Origin: a virus
IMG/VR virus record: IMGVR_UViG_3300003319_000462
Span: 1-44,253 of that record
DNA: 44,253 nt
Strand: one strand, 5' to 3'
Shown here: positions 26,216-44,253 of the stretch, in pieces
Layout: each line of letters starts with the position of its first letter
Position numbering within the stretch: the stretch's first letter is position 1
Program-made: the position numbers and the translations under genes
Notes under the pieces: generated by a model
Databases searched by the model: none
What the model was told of the DNA's origin: nothing
What the model saw: the letters and a program-made list of their open reading frames with translations, nothing else

Positions 26216-26419
26216 CTACTGGTTGAACCGCAGCCGCATCTGTCCCGCCGCCCGCAGTCTCTCCTCCGTCGCCCTCATGCGGGCCAGCTGTCGCCGCTCT
26301 CGTCGGAGCCATCGCTGGCGCTCCCTTCTGCATCTGATCGAGCAACTCTTGCGCTCCCTGCCGTGCCGGTGGCCGGCGTAGTCGGTCCTAGGGTCGAACG
26401 TCGTGTCGCAGCTACACAG
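26216..26419 (-). CDS. Small basic zinc-finger-like protein, start uncertain
   Basis: The open frame from about 26419 to 26216 gives a very basic protein of about 67 residues with SCDTTFDPRTDYAGHRHG, then CSIRC and a long Arg/Glu helix (RRERQRWLRRERRQLARM). The Cys and His pattern suggests a single zinc finger. No ATG or GTG is well placed: the only candidate at the gene edge is a CTG at 26419 overlapping the nuclease stop. Expression may depend on translational coupling from the nuclease gene. Confidence 0.45.
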   Translation of the reverse strand: MCSCDTTFDPRTDYAGHRHGRERKSCSIRCRRERQRWLRRERRQLARMRATEERLRAAGQMRLRFNQ

Positions 26420-27290
26420 GGTCGGAGGCGCAGTGTCTCTGGTGGGAGCAGTACAGACAAAACCATGCGGTTCCAGTGTCAATGACGTCCCCCTCCTCGC
26501 TTCTGCGCTCCCAGCGCCCCGACATGGGGTCCACGATGACCGCCCCCCTGGGCAGTTCGGGGTCGGGGATCTTGCGGGCGATACGGACACCTTCGTCCAC
26601 GCCTCTGAGGATCTTGTTCCATCGCTCGATCTCCGCTGCGGCAATGGGCTCGTACTCCTCTCGGGTCCAGGTCCACTGCGCGGCGATGCGCCCGATCTCC
26701 CCCAGCCCGCTCTTCGCCGCGGCCTGGATGGACACCGCTTCGAGGGAGAGGTACACGACGCACACCTCGTCGGCGTCCACGGCCTTGGCGTTGAGAGCGG
26801 CCTGGACGACAGCCGACCAGCGGGGTCCTCTCGCCGCTCCCCGCTCTCCGATGGCTGTCTTGTAGCCGTAGCCGTTGATGGTCTTGAGCTCGATGAGCGT
26901 GGTCTTGCCGTCCTGCTCGACGAGGGCGTCGGCGTGGCCTGACGCATCGAGGCCATCCACCCTCAGTCTGAGCTCGATTCTCGCCGTGGGGTAGAGGCGC
27001 GCCAGCTCTTCCTGGAACCACCCGTGGATCTCCGAGCCCAGCCGCACGCTCCACCAGAAGGTGACGTCGGGCGGGTCCGACGCCGGAACGCCGGTGAGGC
27101 GGTACTCCAGCAGCCGCCCGCACGAGGCCGCCCAGGAGTGACGCAGGCGGGTGTCGAAGGCGAACTCCAGCTCGTCGCGCTCGCGGCCTTCCGCCGCGGT
27201 TCTCTCTACAAGGAGACGGGCGAAGACCGGGTCGTCGTCGGGACGGCGACCGCCGGCGATGACCGGAGCGTGGAACGACTTGATGGCCAC
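26412..27290 (-). CDS. Cas4/AddB-like PD-(D/E)XK nuclease with Fe-S-type cysteines
   Basis: The protein is 292 aa from GTG 27290, chosen because GGAGG lies 8 bases upstream; upstream frame continues but is noise. The nuclease core is HADALVEQDG (D121) followed by TLIELKT (E134, K136). A cysteine at residue 57 (AASCGRLLEY) and C278-x2-C281-x5-C287 near the end (FCLYCSHQRHC) form the four-Cys set that holds a 4Fe-4S cluster in Cas4 and AddB. Such enzymes degrade single-stranded or duplex ends and act in recombination or replication. In this genome it may partner the SSB and the host replisome. No polymerase, exonuclease partner or CRISPR genes are near. Confidence 0.85.
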   Translation of the reverse strand: MAIKSFHAPVIAGGRRPDDDPVFARLLVERTAAEGRERDELEFAFDTRLRHSWAASCGRLLEYRLTGVPASDPPDVTFWWSVRLGSEIHGWFQEELARLYPTARIELRLRVDGLDASGHADALVEQDGKTTLIELKTINGYGYKTAIGERGAARGPRWSAVVQAALNAKAVDADEVCVVYLSLEAVSIQAAAKSGLGEIGRIAAQWTWTREEYEPIAAAEIERWNKILRGVDEGVRIARKIPDPELPRGAVIVDPMSGRWERRSEEGDVIDTGTAWFCLYCSHQRHCASDPV

Positions 27291-27398
27291 GAAGATCCTC
27301 CTCGAACACCAGGGCGTGACCATCGTAGCGCACTGGCGGCTCCGCCGCGCCGTGTACTGTGGATCTGCGGCCGTTCCTCTGAGCGACGCGCCAGGGCT

Positions 27399-27426
27399 GA
27401 GGGCCGGGGAGCGATCCCCGGCCCTC
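27399..27426 (-). terminator. Perfect 11-bp stem-loop after the phosphatase operon
   Basis: The arms 27399-27409 and 27416-27426 (GAGGGCCGGGG) pair perfectly with a 6-base loop. There is no U-run. It lies 15 bases after the stop of the 95-aa gene and about 110 bases before the nuclease start, so it most likely ends the three-gene block 27441-30924. Confidence 0.75.
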
Positions 27427-27440
27427 ATGGTTCCCAGGTC

Positions 27441-27728
27441 CTAGGGAGCGATGCTCACCAGGGCGGCGTCGTACCCCAGGTCCGAGGCCCAGGCCTTCAG
27501 GGCCTCGGCCTTGTCGCCCACGCCGTCGTCGACGGAGGCGCTGGCCCCCCACGGGGTGATCGAGCTGCCGGTCACCCGGAACACGTCCACCTTGATGTTG
27601 GAGCCGTTGACGGACTGGAGCAGACGCTCGGTCCGCTCCCGGTAGGCGCCCCCGGCGTCGTAGCTGGGGCCGTCGATGAACAGCGCGGTGCGGTGCTTTC
27701 TGACCACGCCTTGCGAGTTGAAGCTCAT
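27441..27728 (-). CDS. Third gene of the Cys-rich/phosphatase block; possible NYN-like start
   Basis: The protein has 95 residues. GGAGG precedes the ATG, which also overlaps the phosphatase stop (ATGA). The start HRTALFIDGPSYDAG recalls the first strand of NYN/PIN nucleases, and the end LGYDAALVS recalls a late NYN strand, but the other acidic residues expected for catalysis are missing and the protein is short. It may be a truncated or degenerate NYN domain, or something else. It is the last gene of a three-gene coupled block and is followed by a hairpin. Confidence 0.6.
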   Translation of the reverse strand: MSFNSQGVVRKHRTALFIDGPSYDAGGAYRERTERLLQSVNGSNIKVDVFRVTGSSITPWGASASVDDGVGDKAEALKAWASDLGYDAALVSIAP

Positions 27729-29056
27729 GTACTACCTCCATGGAGCGCTTTGGGCCGCAGGTCTTTCCTGTGGCGCCGTATTGCCTTCCCGGCCGACGCG
27801 TCGGCCGGTGCCGTCTTCGGTGTGGAGACCGCCTTGGTGATGACGGTCGTCCCTCCGAAGGACTTCTTGCCCAACTCTCTTCTCTCCCCTGGCTTGTAGC
27901 CGAGGACCGTCCCGTAGCCCGATTCGACTCTCGTGGACTTGTCCGACGTCCAGACCTTCTTCGGCGGCTTCTCCCGGCATCTCGTGCCCTTGAGCCTGGA
28001 CTCGAACCACTCCGAGAACCACTCCTGCTCCTCGCCCTCCACCGCGTGGGTGCAGTAGTTGGCCCGAACCCACTTCACCGCCTCCACACCGCCGTCCACG
28101 CCGCAGAGCTGGGCCATGGCGGCCATGACCGCCCCGGTGCGCCCGTGCCCGCCCATGCAGCCGATCTCCACGACGTCGCCGGCCTTGGCCAGCGTCACCG
28201 CCGTCTCGATGGCCCAGTAGGTCCACTCATCGGAGACCTTGGACAGGCCGAAGTCGTTCCACGGCAGCATCATGTGGAGATAGTCGGGGCACCACGTCGA
28301 GCACATGTAGAGCCCGAAGTCGGGCTCCGGCTCGTCGTCTCTGCGTCTGTGGTGCGACGAGGCCCAGATCTTGGTCCCGTCGGGGAACACCACCTCCTGG
28401 CCGTAGTGACGGTCTCTCTGCCAGGCCTCCCAACCGTCGTCGGACCATCTGCTGCCGCTCCATCTCCCGACACGCGCTCTCGGCGGCGGGTACATGTCCC
28501 ACTCTCTGTCGGTCATGGGCCGCCAGTGGTCACCGTTGACGGGGTCTCTCTCCATCATCAGCCGGCTCACGTGGCAGACGAATCTGTGGTTCGGCGTGCA
28601 GTTGCACTTTCTCGGGGCGATCCACGTGTCGTCTAAGACGTAGTCCGCGATCCCCCAGGAGCGGAGGAGGTCCTGGTAGTCCCACCACTCGTTGTTGCTG
28701 AGCTTTCTGGGGTCGGCGTCGCAGAGATAGTTCTGGTAGTCCTCGGTGAACTCGGCCACGTTTCTTGCGACGATGGCGTCGAGCTCCGCTTCGCTTATCT
28801 CGCTCTCTTCGGCGTCGAAAGGATCCCCCATGCCCTGCCCGTCGGCGCCGTTGCCCAGCCTGTCCAGCAGCGTGCCGTCGCCGGACACCCGGTCGATGCT
28901 GGCTTCCCGAAGGGTCTCCGAGTCGTCGTCCCACCACCGCAAACCCCAGGCGAAGTCGGTGTCGAACAGCAGCTCGCACTCTCTGGAGTGGTCCTCCGCC
29001 CACCTTCCTTTCGGGTTTTCACAATCGCACTTGACCATGGACATGAGACTCGTCAT
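27725..29056 (-). CDS. Dual-specificity/tyrosine-type protein phosphatase
   Basis: The protein has 443 residues from the ATG that overlaps the preceding stop (ATGA); AAGGAGG lies 11 bases upstream. The signature EIGCMGGHGRTGAV holds the Cys nucleophile at about residue 300 and Arg at 306 (C-x5-R), followed by a helix (VMAAMAQLCGV). Upstream of it MLPWNDFGLSKVSDEW can supply the general acid. The N-terminal 270 residues are unusual: acidic, Trp-rich, with CDCENPKGRW, CNCTPNHRFVCH and WDMYPPP motifs that may bind metal. The C-terminal tail is basic (about 390-443). Targets are unknown. It lies between the Cys-rich 623-aa gene and the 95-aa gene, which suggests one function for all three. Confidence 0.8.
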   Translation of the reverse strand: MTSLMSMVKCDCENPKGRWAEDHSRECELLFDTDFAWGLRWWDDDSETLREASIDRVSGDGTLLDRLGNGADGQGMGDPFDAEESEISEAELDAIVARNVAEFTEDYQNYLCDADPRKLSNNEWWDYQDLLRSWGIADYVLDDTWIAPRKCNCTPNHRFVCHVSRLMMERDPVNGDHWRPMTDREWDMYPPPRARVGRWSGSRWSDDGWEAWQRDRHYGQEVVFPDGTKIWASSHHRRRDDEPEPDFGLYMCSTWCPDYLHMMLPWNDFGLSKVSDEWTYWAIETAVTLAKAGDVVEIGCMGGHGRTGAVMAAMAQLCGVDGGVEAVKWVRANYCTHAVEGEEQEWFSEWFESRLKGTRCREKPPKKVWTSDKSTRVESGYGTVLGYKPGERRELGKKSFGGTTVITKAVSTPKTAPADASAGKAIRRHRKDLRPKALHGGST

Positions 29057-30924
29057 ACGAGCAAGGCCCTCCTTTGTTCTTCTCGACGGGCGGCGTCGGG
29101 GAAATCGAACCGACTCCGGGGGGAGGTGTAGCCGTTTCTGACCTCCCAGTCCCTGATGACATCGGGCCCGCTGCGCAGCGTCGGGCCGCCCCAATCGCGC
29201 CGCACAGCGTTGGAGACGTTGAGGTACTCGGACCACAGCGCGTTGACGGTTCTGCCGCTGTGCAGCGCCAGGGTGGCGAAGTCGGCTTCGACCGCGCTGT
29301 GGGCGGGCCCGATGAACATCTGGATGGCCTGGAGGCCGACGTTGCGCCAGGTCGGACGGTCCTTCCAGGGAAGCTTGTTGAAGAAACAGCCCCCGTTGTG
29401 CTCCAGCGTGAAGCAGCGGTCCACGAAGATCTCCGGGTTGATGAGCCCTTCGAGCCGGTCGGCCAGAATCCGGCACGGCTGGGCCCATCTCTCCCCGCCA
29501 TAGCCGCTTCTCTCGCCGAACTCCAAGAACATGTCGCTGAGGTCCCGGTACGCCTGCACGGCTCCGACCTGTTCTTCGACCTGCTTGCCCAGCACCCACG
29601 CGGTCGGGCGTAACGACCGGCCCAGGCTGGCCCCGCCGTCATACCGCTTCATGGCCATGTGGTGGCGGATCTCTCCCCATGCGGCCAGGGCCACGTATCT
29701 GCGCAATACGCTGTCCCAGGTCGAGATCAGCTCCCTGCGCACGAGGCGGGCCTCAGAGACAAGGTGGGACACGTACCCGTGCCGCTGGACGGCGTCGCGG
29801 TGCGGCCCGGCGCAGGACTCCAACAGGGACAGGAGATAGAACTCGGCGCAGGCGGTGACCGGGTCGTAGTGCTTGGAGTCGAACCCCCACACCTCGTCGT
29901 ACTCCCGCGTGTCCGGTACTAGGTGGAGTGACAGACCGCGTTCCACCCACGGCGGCTCTTCGCGCATTGTGGAGACCCGCCCGGGGCCTAATAATAACGA
30001 GCAGTCGCAGCCCCCACAGGTCTGGTGCTCTTCGCAGCCTTCGACCATTGTGTCGAACTTCTTTAAGCAGGAGACGCAGTACACGCACGAGCACGACGAG
30101 CCTGATCTCTCGCAGATTTCGCAGCACGTGCAGTCGTCGACCTCTTCCCCACAGGTGGGGCACTCCTCACAGAGGCAGGTCCCGGCTTCTTCTCCGCAGA
30201 ACTTGCACTCTTCGAGCTCCGCCTCCTCCTCGTCTTTTACCGTGGCCACCTCCCCTCCCCCCTTTCTTCTCGTGCGCTTGAACGCCTCTTTCACCGGCAC
30301 GCTGGGGTCGACGGGGTAGCCGATTTCGACCTCCATCAGCAGAGGGCTGGGCTCAACCGAAACGGCGGCCTTCGTGCTGGGTATGGTTCTCGGCTTCAGC
30401 TCAGTCGGGAAGCCCATTGGCGTCGGAGCCCATGGAGTGGTGAAGTTGGTCTTAACGGCCACCTTCTGAGCCCAGTCGTTGTACGCTCTGAACGAAACGT
30501 GGTCCGCCGGTCTGTAGACCAAGAGGGGTGGGAGATCCCAAAGAGCCCCGGCTCCCAAAAATCTTTGATGTGGTTTCGGAGCGCCTACAGGGCCGAAGAT
30601 GAAGGAGAGGTCACCCGTGACCAGCGGGGCATGCTGGACCTGCTTGGCCGGTCTTTGGGGCGACGTGATCTCGATGTCGTCGAAGACGATCAGGTCACTG
30701 GGACACGCGACGGGGTAGACGGTCTGTTGCTCTGCTTCGAGACCGACGTACGCGTCGAGATAATCGGAGTATCTGAGGACAGATCTCTGCCCATGGATCT
30801 GCGCGTGCGCTCTTCTTCTGAGATTTTTCATGAGGAGGGCGAACTCCTCCTCAGCCTCTTCCGCCAGCTGCTTTTTCCATTCGGCTTCGCTCATCCACTC
30901 CGGCCATCTCTCCGTCGTCACCAT
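29053..30924 (-). CDS. Large Cys-rich protein of unknown function (first gene of the phosphatase block)
   Basis: The protein has 623 residues. GGAGGAG precedes the ATG. The N-terminal 230 residues (WPEWMSEAEWKKQL, later VFDDIEITSP) are of unknown fold and come from visibly less GC-rich DNA. Residues about 245-320 form a Cys-rich block with many close Cys pairs (CKFCGEEAGTC, CPTCGEEVDDC, CCEICERSGSSCSC, YCVSCLKKF, CGGCDC), probably several zinc sites. The C-terminal 300 residues are helical and hold the motif DRCFTLEHNGGCFFNKLPW. I have seen 'DxxxxLxHNxGxxxxK'-type motifs in uncharacterised bacterial proteins, but I cannot name this one. Its stop overlaps the phosphatase start. Function unknown. 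Confidence 0.8.
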   Translation of the reverse strand: MVTTERWPEWMSEAEWKKQLAEEAEEEFALLMKNLRRRAHAQIHGQRSVLRYSDYLDAYVGLEAEQQTVYPVACPSDLIVFDDIEITSPQRPAKQVQHAPLVTGDLSFIFGPVGAPKPHQRFLGAGALWDLPPLLVYRPADHVSFRAYNDWAQKVAVKTNFTTPWAPTPMGFPTELKPRTIPSTKAAVSVEPSPLLMEVEIGYPVDPSVPVKEAFKRTRRKGGGEVATVKDEEEAELEECKFCGEEAGTCLCEECPTCGEEVDDCTCCEICERSGSSCSCVYCVSCLKKFDTMVEGCEEHQTCGGCDCSLLLGPGRVSTMREEPPWVERGLSLHLVPDTREYDEVWGFDSKHYDPVTACAEFYLLSLLESCAGPHRDAVQRHGYVSHLVSEARLVRRELISTWDSVLRRYVALAAWGEIRHHMAMKRYDGGASLGRSLRPTAWVLGKQVEEQVGAVQAYRDLSDMFLEFGERSGYGGERWAQPCRILADRLEGLINPEIFVDRCFTLEHNGGCFFNKLPWKDRPTWRNVGLQAIQMFIGPAHSAVEADFATLALHSGRTVNALWSEYLNVSNAVRRDWGGPTLRSGPDVIRDWEVRNGYTSPRSRFDFPDAARREEQRRALLV

Positions 30925-30939
30925 CTCCTCCTTTCACAC

Positions 30940-31032
30940 GAGAAGCCCGGCCCCTGACCCCCGGCGAGGGGCAGGAACCGGGCTTTCTCATGGGGGCTGG
31001 CCAGCTGACGGGCGCGAATCCCTACCAGCCCC
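30940..31032 (-). terminator. Structured intergenic region with two long stems
   Basis: The 149-base gap between 31074 and 30924 has two strong stems. The first pairs 30940-30950 (GAGAAGCCCGG) with 30978-30989 (one bulge) and encloses an inner CCCCT/AGGGG stem. The second pairs 30993-31000 (GGGGCTGG) with 31025-31032 perfectly. Either could end the wHTH-SSB block; U-tracts are weak. A leader with regulatory role for the 623-aa gene is the alternative. Confidence 0.6.
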
Positions 31033-44070: not shown

Positions 44071-44253
44071 ATGCCGCGCGTCGGCAAGGGCGGCCGGGTG
44101 ATCGCCGGCGCCGGCGAGCCGAAGCCGAATCGCTCCGATCTTCAGGCCGTGAAGGTCCCCACCGGGGTCAGATACGGCGAGGGCAAAGAGCTCGCGGACG
44201 CGCAGCGAGCTCTTCCGCTCCCCTCCACGGGGGGCCCGTCGACCGGCGGGGCG
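44071..44253 (+). CDS. Small conserved virion-region protein, 5' part (continues at base 26)
   Basis: The ATG follows the portal stop at once. The first 61 codons lie here and the remaining 94 are at 26-307. The start (MPRVGKGGRVIAGAGEPKPN, then RSDLQ, VKVPTGVRYGEG) and DAQRALPLP look like a small protein that follows the portal in many phages of this type. The frame is open at the end of the window, which supports a circular genome. Function unknown. Confidence 0.8.
   Translation, partial: MPRVGKGGRVIAGAGEPKPNRSDLQAVKVPTGVRYGEGKELADAQRALPLPSTGGPSTGGA
44229..44253. repeat. Right copy of 25-bp terminal direct repeat (assembly overlap)
   Basis: This is identical to bases 1-25. The reading frame that opens at 44071 passes through it and is still open at the last base. 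A true short terminal repeat cannot be excluded from sequence alone, but the in-frame continuation favours a closed circle. Confidence 0.9.

Follow-up and report, generated by a model that had tools for sequence, protein, structure and literature searches.

An HNGG-domain gene linked to a predicted CX5R phosphatase gene in phages, with a possible role in phosphate handling

A block of three minus-strand genes was analyzed in the virus record IMGVR_UViG_3300003319_000462 from IMG/VR, the whole of which (44,253 bases, 66% GC) is referred to here as the window. Gene 1 encodes a long protein whose C-terminal domain is given the name HNGG here, gene 2 a predicted protein tyrosine phosphatase (PTP) and gene 3 a small protein (Table 1). 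The three open reading frames (ORFs) are coupled by ATGA overlaps at 29056/29053 and 27728/27725, as a first-pass annotation of this DNA had described. That annotation knew of no described system of this make-up, and a literature search likewise found no description of the block or of the linkage of its genes (subscription journals and preprints lay outside the search).

Loci were collected from IMG/VR by a PTP motif pattern and, conversely, by the HNGG motif alone. These patterns succeeded where full-length similarity scans of each of the three proteins against IMG/VR gave no match, the family members being too divergent, and tblastn against phage records likewise returned nothing for gene 3 or the complete gene 1 protein. 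The counts of the PTP motif scan are those of a sample, and the locus counts given here hold among the matches listed. HNGG lay directly upstream of PTP2 in 123 of the 125 viral loci with enough upstream sequence, and a PTP lay directly downstream in 139 of 147 HNGG loci. Seven of the other eight had a PTP immediately upstream. A PTP immediately upstream of HNGG was seen at L004, L008, L009 and L183, second HNGG copies followed the PTP at L163, L175 and L189, and L165 had an HNGG gene without a PTP but with pieces of PPDK. The HNGG-motif scan yielded 18 loci beyond the PTP scan with a PTP on 18/18 contigs, in two cases at a neighbouring locus of the same contig. The HNGG proteins make up at least 107 clusters at 60% identity. 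The linkage of HNGG and PTP is very probably real. L163 and L175/L189 have a single PTP with an HNGG gene on either side, the two HNGG genes being divergent.

The gene order PPDK-like, PTP1, HNGG, PTP2 was found in Stenotrophomonas phage Summit, Rhizobium phages RHph_TM16 and Y1_11 and Rhodobacter phage RcZahn, and also in the Vibrio phages KarBoss, V-YDF132 and PG28; SIO-2-like Vibrio phages have a single PTP, upstream of HNGG. Summit/DLP3/DLP5, SIO-2, RcZahn and RHph_TM16, which have HNGG, one or two PTPs and a PPDK-like gene, are proteobacterial phages of 80-101 kb without a Cys-rich HNGG, whereas the window is 44 kb with 66% GC. The full trio was found in the same order in one other, unrelated phage (L105/L159, the same contig), and the genes of L159 outside the trio had no BLAST match to the window. 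Co-occurrence, raised at first pass for all three genes, therefore holds for genes 1 and 2 and not for gene 3, for which one relative was found, in a single other phage. What is conserved is the pair of HNGG and phosphatase, in most phages together with a PPDK-like dikinase, rather than the exact trio.

The C-terminal domain of gene 1 matched the profile of phrog_20946 (aa 459-517, E = 9e-11), a family whose function is not annotated, and our own HNGG hidden Markov model matched gene 1 at aa ~342-552 (E = 2e-40). Besides the significant profile match, the ExRH, GGxxW, D, HN and K motifs of phrog_20946 are all present in the window protein. The window protein shares this domain with the family but has in addition an N-terminal extension of ~340 aa that includes a Cys-rich segment; neither function nor partners have been described for the family. 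A typical HNGG family protein is ~340 aa long and lacks the Cys-rich segment, and the HNGG domain of gene 1 is a distant member with ~11-35% identity to 55 aligned relatives. Nine residues were invariant in 105/105 sequences (E108, R110, G180, G181, W184, D206, H213, N214 and K221 in L073 numbering); they are mostly polar and the set looks like an active site. The HNGG motif noticed at first pass as conserved-looking occupies aa 509-512, inside a family-wide invariant motif. As the window's own HNGG domain gave a model with a predicted local distance difference test (pLDDT) of only 75, for which the fold search was uninformative, a family model was made from 105 sequences. This AlphaFold model of a canonical HNGG domain (L073, 105-sequence alignment) had a mean pLDDT of 93.7 and a predicted template modelling score of 0.89, and was all alpha with a small C-terminal hairpin. 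Foldseek of the family model against the PDB gave no match (best E 0.30, template modelling scores ~0.1-0.2 among the best hits), nor did the HNGG sequence profile against the PDB, and the modelled fold is apparently new. HNGG is probably an enzyme.

The Cys-rich part of gene 1 is an accessory fusion and the core of gene 1 lies elsewhere. A Cys-rich stretch is indeed present where about 20 Cys in 75 residues had been counted, with slightly fewer Cys (18 in 70 aa). Comparable Cys-rich fusions to HNGG occur in L049/L083/L178-182 and L105/L159 (24 Cys per 80 aa) and in L163 (15 Cys), and fewer Cys were counted in L042 (12), L175 (10) and L036 and L081 (eight). HNGG proteins with Cys-rich segments are thus found in several divergent phages including the branch of the window.

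Gene 2 matched phrog_17568 (E = 3e-17), and a profile of its clade matched archaeal PTP structures and DUSP23 (E = 1e-12). A single-sequence Pfam match was below the cut-off, so the assignment rests on profile evidence. The C-x5-R P-loop, general-acid Asp and distal Gln of CX5R tyrosine/dual-specificity phosphatases were all found, with C300, R306, D268 and Q344 invariant in the clade alignment. The clear phosphatase site of the first-pass annotation is therefore borne out, and gene 2 is by motif a catalytically complete CX5R tyrosine/dual-specificity phosphatase of predicted activity. The three features align with those of archaeal/DUSP23-like CX5R phosphatases (5z59, 2i6i, 4erc); gene 2 differs from these in its large N-terminal extension, in which Cys/His motifs make metal binding plausible, and in being tied to HNGG in phages. 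PHROGs labels phrog_17568, to which the gene 2 phosphatase domain belongs, as 'thymidylate synthase'. Given the CX5R motif and the matches to PTP structures this label is wrong for these proteins, apparently an annotation error. The mislabel has spread to CX5R phosphatases in the phage records DLP3, DLP5 and 29Fa.3. In a PTP tree the window PTP grouped with cellular actinobacterial PTPs, with a weakly supported fork and long branches.

A PPDK-like gene was located upstream on the same strand in 41 of the 45 loci (among the matches listed) with at least 5 kb of upstream sequence, nearly always within ~2 kb. The phage dikinases matched PPDK_N (ATP-grasp) and PEP-utilizers (phospho-His), domains shared with the PPDK/PEP-synthase/rifampin-phosphotransferase dikinases. 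Unlike these, the phage versions lack the phosphoenolpyruvate (PEP)-binding domain: PEP-utilizers_C/PF02896 had no match at E 0.01 in the dikinases of L001 and L010, whereas the cellular PPDK in L210, the control, clearly matched it. Small phages (L161-L188) carry a split dikinase, with separate phospho-His and ATP-grasp genes around HNGG-PTP and no third domain. The catalytic 'CHAA' His is kept in these split dikinases. The window phage is a member of a divergent branch without the dikinase. Phage PPDK has been annotated as an auxiliary carbon-metabolism gene (PMC12038007; PMC10671443), and phage PPDK and PTP have been given separately as auxiliary genes (PMC7326821; PMC12038007; PMC10671443). 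The published hosts of viral PPDK (Vibrio, Stenotrophomonas, Rhizobium and Rhodobacter plus one Peptoclostridium; PMC12038007) nearly equal the named set of HNGG-PTP phages. A gene between PPDK and PTP1 in L010 (5626-6099) had a weak CsrA-like match (phrog_9500, E = 1e-5).

Among cellular genomes, HNGG was detected in 4 of 397 actinobacterial and 1 of 399 pseudomonadotal genomes, the latter being the seed genome. HNGG adjoins a PTP in G186 and G043. In G043 (L209, contig C78) the pair is directly beside a full DISARM locus (DrmMI, DrmA, DrmB, DrmC), and in G186 (L208, contig C2) the element around the pair carries an ArdC-like gene, type IIG/DUF262-like restriction genes and an additional beta clamp of DNA polymerase III. 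L211 has a degenerate HNGG in another restriction-rich region. G223 and G835 encode a fusion of HNGG and cyclophilin domains; a radical SAM gene adjoins it and ABC transporter genes lie near, a neighbourhood that looks like a peptide or natural-product cluster. These chromosomal HNGG-cyclophilin proteins (L210 7208-9388; L213 7882-10113) share a short conserved 'GSLGCGSA' stretch located between their two domains. PADLOC models gave no match for any member up to E 0.01.

We propose that genes 1 and 2 form the centre of a phosphate-handling module that is widespread in phages and acts on one shared substrate, a reading to which we assign a probability of roughly 40%. In most phages the dikinase would charge its own His from ATP and supply the phosphate, HNGG would act on the substrate and may stand in for the PEP/pyruvate-binding domain that the dikinase has lost, and the neighbouring CX5R phosphatase would later remove the phosphate from the substrate. 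As the window phage has no dikinase, the host or a different kinase would have to provide the phosphate there; the Cys-rich, zinc-ribbon-like extensions of the gene 1 and gene 2 proteins may recruit the target. The sharing of the substrate, the order of the steps and the role of the Cys segment are what we infer, and the specific three-part mechanism of dikinase, HNGG and PTP is tentative. Similarly tentative is a more far-reaching version, in which HNGG represents a previously unseen class of enzyme and all-alpha fold and serves as an exchangeable substrate domain of the dikinase, the two forming with the CX5R phosphatase a three-part phosphorylation-dephosphorylation system of many phages and some actinobacterial islands; phage 'PPDK' genes would in that case not belong to carbon metabolism. 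The HNGG block would be new as judged by the absence of matches in the libraries searched, and its proposed function is a prediction.

Several observations weigh against a phosphate-handling module. Of 43 clusters, 35 have a DNA polymerase gene in the vicinity, and shared phage ancestry hence accounts for part of the linkage. A search of the window for a remote or split PPDK (PPDK_N, PEP-utilizers) found none, and searches over the full length of 11 other divergent records, some of them fragments, found no dikinase either. The HNGG-cyclophilin fusion has no adjacent PTP, and some actinobacterial genomes that lack HNGG encode standalone PTPs of the gene 2 clade, with 38-49% identity to gene 2, which indicates that each partner can exist apart in cells.

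The phosphatase alone could be an effector that reprograms the host by dephosphorylation, with HNGG as a non-enzymatic targeting or regulatory partner or as its substrate. The complete PTP motif, the Cys-rich binding-type extensions on both proteins and the presence of PTP next to HNGG in almost all phage loci fit such an effector, which we consider possible but unlikely, since nine invariant, mostly polar HNGG residues resemble an active site more than a binding surface, these phages usually encode a dikinase too, and a cellular HNGG domain is known without an adjacent PTP. The setting of the actinobacterial pairs, one beside full DISARM (L209) and one in the element with ArdC, beta clamp and restriction genes (L208), together with the degenerate HNGG in a restriction-rich region (L211), would suit a conflict module, which might counter host defences or might itself be a defence that phages and islands carry. 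Such cellular cases are only three, however, and islands gather all kinds of phage genes; the proteins have no match among the PADLOC models, and large phages place the module among packaging and replication genes, so that we regard a conflict module as improbable. The role in counter-defence or host take-over that was guessed at first pass is a possibility that no result here specifically favours.

Descent through a conserved phage gene order, with unrelated functions, would make the genes neighbours and nothing else. The frequent DNA polymerase speaks for this, as does the appearance of most loci as coming from one broad group of large phages. Twelve HNGG loci without such a polymerase nevertheless keep an adjacent PTP (directly downstream in 10, directly upstream in 2), the pair persists in actinobacterial islands, and the trio is intact in L159, none of whose other genes matches the window; descent alone is distinctly improbable. 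The polymerase-free loci and the actinobacterial islands weaken pure co-inherited synteny as an account of the HNGG-PTP2 pair. The published annotation as auxiliary carbon metabolism (PMC12038007; PMC10671443), in which phage PPDK would interconvert pyruvate and PEP with PTP and HNGG incidental, is very improbable, as phage PPDKs have no match to the PEP-binding domain that the cellular control matches, small phages split PPDK into two genes without the third domain, and the window has no PPDK at all.

If the proposed phosphate-handling module is correct, one of the widespread unannotated blocks in phages of 80-117 kb amounts to a single system for phosphate transfer, built around a family without structure or function. 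This would explain the recurrence of PPDK and tyrosine phosphatase in phages and correct their carbon-metabolism and signalling labels, and the PPDK-free, Cys-rich branch (including the window) would show the minimal core. The module genes are available in cultured phages (Stenotrophomonas DLP5/Summit and Vibrio SIO-2).

Gene 3 has 42% identity over 90 aa to the gene in the same position of L105/L159, and a further IMG/VR scan for relatives returned only that contig. Pfam and NCBIfam searches of gene 3 gave no match. A truncated NYN domain had been suggested for this protein, which was not upheld; the NYN profile PF01936 had no match up to E = 10, and the reading as a NYN/PIN-like nuclease was rejected. 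Both copies of gene 3 stop where the last NYN acidic motif would come, so recent truncation does not account for the short form.

Table 1. Features of the three-gene block in the window.
Feature	Coordinates	Strand	Description
Gene 1	29053..30924	-	ORF; 623-aa protein, N-terminal extension with Cys-rich segment and C-terminal HNGG domain
Cys-rich segment, aa 240-308	30001..30207	-	18 Cys; repeated CxxC...CxC units, putative zinc ribbons
HNGG domain, ~aa 342-555	29260..29901	-	Predicted all-alpha; window model pLDDT 75, family model pLDDT 93.7
ExRH motif (E418, R420, H421)	29662..29673	-	E and R in 105/105, H in 103/105 aligned sequences
HNGGCFFNK motif, aa 509-517	29374..29400	-	H, N and K invariant family-wide
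Gene 2	27725..29056	-	443 aa; C-terminal CX5R phosphatase domain ~aa 195-355
Putative metal site 1, phosphatase N terminus (CDC...H...C, aa 10-27)	28976..29029	-	From sequence; similar in L105/L159 'CNCEAGPDDDHDGQC'
Putative metal site 2 (CNCTPNHRFVCH, aa 151-162)	28571..28606	-	Sequence only
D268, general-acid Asp, WPD-like 'WNDFG' ('WPDFG' in relatives)	28253..28255	-	Clade-invariant; aligns with PDB phosphatase loop
P-loop C300-x5-R306 (GCMGGHGRTG)	28139..28159	-	Invariant in 8/8 clade members and 18/18 phage PTPs
Gene 3	27441..27728	-	95 aa, no family
Hairpins, transcript 5' of gene 1	30940..31032	-	Fold z -4.56 to -4.95
Hairpin directly 3' of gene 3	27399..27426	-	Terminator-like stem without U-run; z -3.91

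The window begins and ends with an exact 25-bp direct repeat (1-25 and 44229-44253), which suggests a complete, circularly assembled genome; its IMG/VR class is linear. Terminase and major head protein genes were matched in PHROGs. The strong hairpins said to bracket the block both fold far better than shuffled sequence (27391-27446, z -3.9; 30925-31000, z -4.95; no shuffle was as good), and a terminator scan of the minus strand found no acceptable U-run in either, the hairpin after gene 3 not being called. The lower GC reported for the N-terminal part of gene 1 was also seen, as a modest drop in the first third of the gene (59-61% compared to 64-69% around it). Directly downstream of the block an ORF at 26412-27428 (minus strand) encodes a Cas4/RecB-like nuclease (phrog_1706, E = 2e-7). 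In its longest form this ORF has a start that overlaps the terminator-like hairpin, and translation therefore probably begins at a more internal position.

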